In this document: positions 1,757 to 1,809 of the stretch, piece by piece
How the letters are laid out: each line of letters opens with the position of its first letter
Numbering within the stretch: the stretch's first letter is position 1
Source of the DNA: a bacterium
GTDB taxonomy: Bacteria > Thermosulfidibacterota > Thermosulfidibacteria > Thermosulfidibacterales > Thermosulfidibacteraceae
Direction of reading: 5' to 3'
Length of the DNA stretch: 12,816 bases
Assembly (NCBI GenBank): GCA_027022065.1
Contig: JALVZS010000044.1
Location: 1-12,816 of the forward strand
Notes under the pieces: generated by a model
Told to the model about the DNA's origin: nothing
What the model saw: the letters and a program-made list of their open reading frames with translations, nothing else
Databases searched by the model: none
Translations under genes and position numbers: made by a program

Positions 1757-1773
1757 TTGGCACGCATTTTGCT
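1757..1773 (+). promoter_or_regulatory. Sigma-54 (-24/-12) promoter for flgF and the rod/ring operon
   Basis: TTGGCACGCATTTTGCT fits the sigma-54 consensus YTGGCACG-N4-TTGCW at every defined position. GG (1759-1760) and GC (1771-1772) have the required 10-nt gap. It begins two bases after the stop of the preceding gene, and the predicted start is near 1784, leaving a leader of about 15 nt before the flgF ATG at 1799. An NtrC-family activator encoded at the left edge of the window is a likely partner. No clear activator-binding repeat is visible in the 200 bp upstream; the palindrome at 1330-1358 is about 430 bp away. Confidence 0.9.
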
Positions 1774-1809
1774 AACCATCCTGGCAGGAGGTGCTGGGAT
1801 GGTTAGCAG
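1769..1809 (+). promoter_or_regulatory. Hairpin over the flgF ribosome-binding site and start codon, left arm inside the promoter
   Basis: GCTAACCATCC (1771-1781) and GGATGGTTAGC (1797-1807) are perfect reverse complements. Pairing continues inward (1782-1786 with 1792-1796, including two G-U pairs) and outward (1770-1808, plus wobble 1769-1809). The total is 18 uninterrupted pairs, 15 Watson-Crick and 3 G-U, around a loop of exactly GGAGG (1787-1791). The AUG at 1799-1801 is in the stem. The left arm overlaps the sigma-54 -12 element and precedes the predicted start near 1784, so only RNA read through from upstream could fold fully. As DNA it is also a palindrome that a protein could bind. 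Confidence 0.75.

Follow-up and report, generated by a model that had tools for sequence, protein, structure and literature searches.

The flgF promoter and the hairpin across its start codon

The window, a 12,816-nucleotide stretch of the genome referred to here as G000, carries a flagellar operon that begins with flgF and continues through flgG, flgA, flgM, flgN and others to fliW. Upstream of flgF, on the same strand, lie the tail of a Fis-type helix-turn-helix gene, a small ORF and a pair of FlgO-family genes, the second ending at 1755. The sigma-54 gene is present in the genome, and a sigma-54 site (GG at 1759-1760, N10, GC at 1771-1772) precedes flgF; a search of the window for a sigma-28 promoter, with up to 3 mismatches allowed, gave no match. 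The usual sigma-54 spacing from the promoter elements places the predicted transcription start (+1) near 1784, which leaves a predicted flgF leader of 15 bases. The features at this junction are as follows.

1273-1755, + strand: FlgO-family lipoprotein gene, whose stop codon lies 2 bases 5' of the promoter
1758-1773, + strand: sigma-54 promoter TGGCACGCATTTTGCT, a perfect match to the consensus
1769-1786, + strand: hairpin left arm, equal to promoter positions -15 to +3 and found at the equivalent place in G002 and G003
1787-1791, + strand: hairpin loop GGAGG, the flgF Shine-Dalgarno sequence (SD), 7 bases 5' of the ATG
1792-1809, + strand: hairpin right arm, containing the flgF ATG and first codons
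1799-2611, + strand: flgF, which opens the rod/ring operon, with Pfam flagellar rod domains

The hairpin is built of 18 uninterrupted pairs, 15 Watson-Crick and 3 G-U, from an outermost pair at 1769-1809 to an innermost pair at 1786-1792. Eleven of these pairs form a perfect core (1771-1781/1797-1807), and the flgF ATG (1799-1801) is buried in the right arm. Our recomputed pairing agrees with the preliminary description of this DNA on the 18 pairs, the 11-pair core, the GGAGG loop and the AUG in the stem, and likewise on a left arm that begins inside the sigma-54 -12 element. One figure had to be corrected: starting at 1784 takes away 15 of the 18 bases of the left arm, and with them the entire 11-pair core, rather than the 13 bases first given. 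Within the window no inverted repeat is stronger and no uninterrupted hairpin longer; shuffled controls (n=40) reached a longest run of 14 pairs. No known element in Rfam matches it.

The preliminary description had proposed folding RNA 1740-1830 against RNA 1784-1830, and the two behave differently. The long RNA folds at -31.7 kcal/mol, compared with -22.2 kcal/mol (sd 2.9) for dinucleotide shuffles (z -3.2), whereas the short RNA, which is without most of the left arm, folds in an ordinary way by the same measure (z +0.2). The predicted probability that the AUG is unpaired is 0.00 at 37 C and 0.01 at 70 C when both arms are present, versus 0.51 and 0.68 in RNA that starts at +1. These values favor the original proposal of an AUG hidden on read-through RNA and open on sigma-54 RNA. 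The SD of the long RNA is formally unpaired but lies within a closed five-base loop, where a ribosome would presumably reach it poorly.

A role as an RNA thermometer, also suggested at the outset, is unlikely. The predicted stem energy is -14.5 kcal/mol at 70 C and still -9.9 kcal/mol at 80 C. The AUG stays paired, with an unpaired probability of 0.01 at 80 C that rises to 0.06 at 90 C, and no opening by heat alone is predicted up to the latter temperature.

The flgF start in related genomes

The preliminary description had pointed to related Aquificales, but the window's genome sits in a separate phylum, not in the Aquificota-like group. This phylum is represented by nine genomes in our collection, three of which have flgF: G000, G002 and G003. 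Both flgF-bearing relatives have the start-site hairpin arrangement. The adjacent pair of FlgO-family genes (684-1755) is absent from G002 and G003; since FlgO genes were found in G000 only, the hairpin does not depend on their presence.

G002 encodes a FlgF 63% identical to that of the window, has a different upstream gene and carries TTGCTAACCATCCTAAGTGGAGGTTTTTTAGGATGGTTAGCAG at the equivalent place. In its own contig, the G002 hairpin likewise counts 18 pairs, around a loop of nine bases. When the 18 pairs of the window are followed into G002, 13 are unchanged, 2 are altered on one side and 2 on both, and 1 is lost, so that 17 of 18 pairs are kept; a shift of the partner by one to three alignment columns destroys the fit. 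The accompanying shuffle control (124 of 500) has little power with two sequences only. The sigma-54 RNA of G002 is predicted to be partly paired at 37 C (unpaired probability 0.20 for the SD and 0.31 for the AUG) and open at 70 C.

G003 is more distant, with a FlgF 52% identical and TTTGCTCTCCTGCTCAAGCAGGAGGAGAGAAGAATG, whose letters are largely unrelated. Its hairpin is much shorter, and its left arm, between -12 and +1, pairs with the SD itself; the SD has a predicted unpaired probability of 0.17 with both arms versus 0.98 from +1. Conservation or covariation of the arms in relatives, chosen beforehand as a check on the hairpin, was thus found in the form of compensatory changes in G002 and of different letters in G003. 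Across the three genomes, and three genomes only, the pairing is conserved, and a stable hairpin is predicted to hide the SD and/or the AUG in the long RNA. What is common to all three is an SD or AUG hidden by the stretch from -12 to +1, and not the length of the stem.

This comparison bears on three other explanations. In the first, GCTAACCATCC/GGATGGTTAGC would be a DNA operator at the promoter, bound by a dimeric protein that governs initiation by sigma-54. As such an operator would have it, G000 and G002 have identical 11-base core arms, and these overlap the promoter, a position suited to a repressor. Nevertheless, the arm sequence and spacing expected of a dimeric operator are not kept, nor is the arm repeated elsewhere: the exact arm occurs only at this hairpin in the G000 and G002 genomes, the arm centers are 26 bp apart in G000 versus 28 bp in G002 (a turn of ~70 degrees), the letters and geometry at G003 flgF are unrelated, and the inner pairs change in such a way that pairing stays. 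We regard an operator as distinctly improbable. In the second explanation, the stem would be a processing or stability element, cut by a double-strand RNase or protecting the read-through RNA, with any effects on translation secondary. An 18-pair stem is near the size recognisable by RNase III-like enzymes, but the G003 version is much shorter, and hiding of the SD or AUG is kept in all three genomes where stem length is not; this makes a processing element very improbable. In the third, a promoter other than sigma-54 would place the RNA 5' end upstream of 1769, and the hairpin would either dampen translation at all times or open with the help of a factor. A weak sigma-70-like match at 1729-1758 would indeed start RNA just 5' of the left arm, yet such matches occur at chance level (3 found, 3.0 expected), and heat alone is not predicted to open the stem up to 90 C. 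Under this model there is no reason to expect a left arm that begins, as it does in each of the three genomes, in the -12 element, and we consider the model unlikely.

Random arms and other sigma-54 promoters

Chance complementarity among the promoter, the SD and the conserved first codons was addressed with a random-arm test, in which the -12 element and everything from +1 onward were fixed and positions -11 to -1 were drawn at random. Random arms as stable or better were obtained for flgF in 0 of 12,000 draws in G000, 0 of 12,000 in G002 (0/24,000 for the two genomes) and 22 of 12,000 in G003 (0.2%). The arms in G000 and G002 are shared by descent, leaving only about two independent cases. 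When the test ends at the ATG, flgF of G000 and G002 weakens to 1-3%, since the outer right arm is cut off. The flgB promoters are weaker throughout (10% in G000, 7% in G002 and 42% in G003). Chance gains something from these 7-10% values, and also from the outer pairs TTGC/GCAG, whose letters are fixed for other reasons; with those letters fixed, however, the test still contradicts it at flgF, as do the compensatory changes in G002, and coincidence is exceedingly improbable.

A third promoter of G000, that of a conserved gene of unassigned function called here orfX, reaches 0.9% in the same test, and its orthologues in G001 and G002 are not significant. The orfX gene (L162, L166 and L148, that is G000:C69, G002:C240 and G001:C12) has ~279 codons. 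Its sigma-54 promoter abuts the upstream gene in the three genomes, and a strong start-site hairpin is found only in the G000 copy.

The idea that a start-site hairpin is a general property of sigma-54 promoters was tried and rejected, as 143 short-leader sigma-54 promoters in the Aquificota-like phylum of G018 trend in the opposite direction. Their p values are piled near 1, with 67 in the top tenth and 1 below 0.02, an effect that owes something to the A-rich -11 to -1 stretch there; pairing of this stretch to the ribosome-binding site seems to be avoided. Compared with these 143, the five flgF/flgB promoters that have an ATG start rank far lower (approximate Mann-Whitney p 5e-8, computed on values rebuilt from a histogram). 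A set of about 30 promoters from further phyla, most of them in front of flgF, gives roughly even p values, and only L077 falls below 5%. An exception within the G018-phylum set, at G082:C2:6813-6855, has a near-perfect start-site hairpin.

Probable insulation of flgF by the RNA start site

Taken with the relatives and the predicted folding, the hairpin probably acts as a translational insulator tied to promoter choice, blocking flgF translation on read-through RNA and not on sigma-54 RNA. RNA entering from the upstream gene would carry both arms; its AUG would be locked in the 18-pair stem and its SD held in the five-base loop, and ribosomes could not start. RNA begun by sigma-54 near 1784, at a predicted +1 that falls inside the left arm, would lack that arm and leave the flgF start open. 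With the long RNA closed and the sigma-54 RNA open, the operon would yield protein only while the sigma-54 flagellar programme is running, in keeping with the earlier suggestion that the rod/ring operon is insulated from upstream transcription. Comparative support for the hairpin structure is good, and geometry, conservation and predicted folding are what the sequences show; the start site, the read-through and the difference in translation are inferred.

Placement fits the insulator reading in two of the genomes. The stop codon of the FlgO-family gene is so close to the promoter that its RNA would read into flgF, and no terminator-like site was found between that stop codon and flgF. The flgF promoter begins 2 bases (G000) and 7 bases (G002) after the stop of a co-directional gene, and the gene differs between them. 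Several observations count against insulation. First, G003 flgF lies ~235 bases from a divergent gene, the nearest upstream gene of annotated size, with no co-directional gene close. Second, the orfX promoters of G001 and G002 abut a gene and have no significant hairpin, so an abutting gene alone does not predict one; over 13 promoters, hairpins and abutting genes are not significantly associated (Fisher p 0.08). Third, a hairpin at 1330-1358, within the upstream gene, might curb read-through before it arrives at flgF. Fourth, the sigma-54 RNA of G002 is itself partly paired at 37 C, and the arms shared by G000 and G002 through descent reduce the number of independent cases.

One of the closest known counterparts comes from phage T4, in which late genes such as I-TevI, soc, e, segB and others have their late promoter inside the hairpin; early and middle transcripts are silenced, and late RNA, which is without the left part, is translated (PMC2988022). 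The T4 precedent cited in the preliminary description (e, soc, I-TevI) is borne out by that paper. The promoter-embedded logic is the same as at flgF, although T4 applies it to viral genes under a late promoter of its own and flgF has a bacterial sigma-54 promoter. On a bacterial chromosome, the sigG gene of B. subtilis has a hairpin of 20+ pairs that is proposed to block read-through RNA of the spoIIG operon; transcripts begun at the sigG promoter are unable to form it (PMC5942855). Exclusion of the hairpin from own-promoter RNA is shared with flgF; the differences are that sigG encodes a forespore sigma factor behind a sigma-F/sigma-G promoter, while flgF heads a flagellar structural operon under sigma-54 and has its SD in the loop and its AUG in the stem. 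In Campylobacter, the RNAs CjNC1/CjNC4 pair with sigma-54 dependent flagellar messages at the ribosome-binding site (PMC4626219). There too the ribosome-binding site of a sigma-54 flagellar message is paired, but by a trans-acting small RNA on the sigma-54 RNA, in contrast to a hairpin that would act in cis on read-through RNA only. No flagellar or sigma-54 case of a read-through-silencing hairpin was found in a non-exhaustive search of the open literature, as had been anticipated for flagellar genes, and the use of the T4/sigG-type mechanism in this setting appears new.

In compact genomes, tightly timed promoters lie directly behind unrelated genes, and insulation without terminators is seldom explained. 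If the mechanism is correct, it would insulate in cis without a protein, with sigma-54 RNA competent for translation and all other RNA not; it would extend the mechanism of phage T4 and one spore gene to flagellar assembly and sigma-54 control, and offer a simple signature to search for in other genomes. From flgF in three genomes, the weaker flgB in two and the third promoter in G000, one may tentatively ask whether flagellar sigma-54 promoters of this phylum repeatedly have such a start-site hairpin embedded in them, a device by which the RNA 5' end would turn translation on or off and which would replace terminators in a tight gene order; we see this wider reading as possible but doubtful.

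Two smaller features accompany the junction. The hairpin at 1330-1358, near the start of the second FlgO-family gene, is terminator-like, with 13 pairs followed by CTATGTTTTT; it could attenuate upstream RNA or be due to chance. At 1753-1801, the TAA stop codon (1753-1755) is followed by a TTG at 1757 that is in frame with flgF across the entire hairpin; no in-frame ATG, GTG or TTG start was seen at the corresponding place in G002. Ribosomes restarting at the TTG would produce a FlgF with 14 extra residues.
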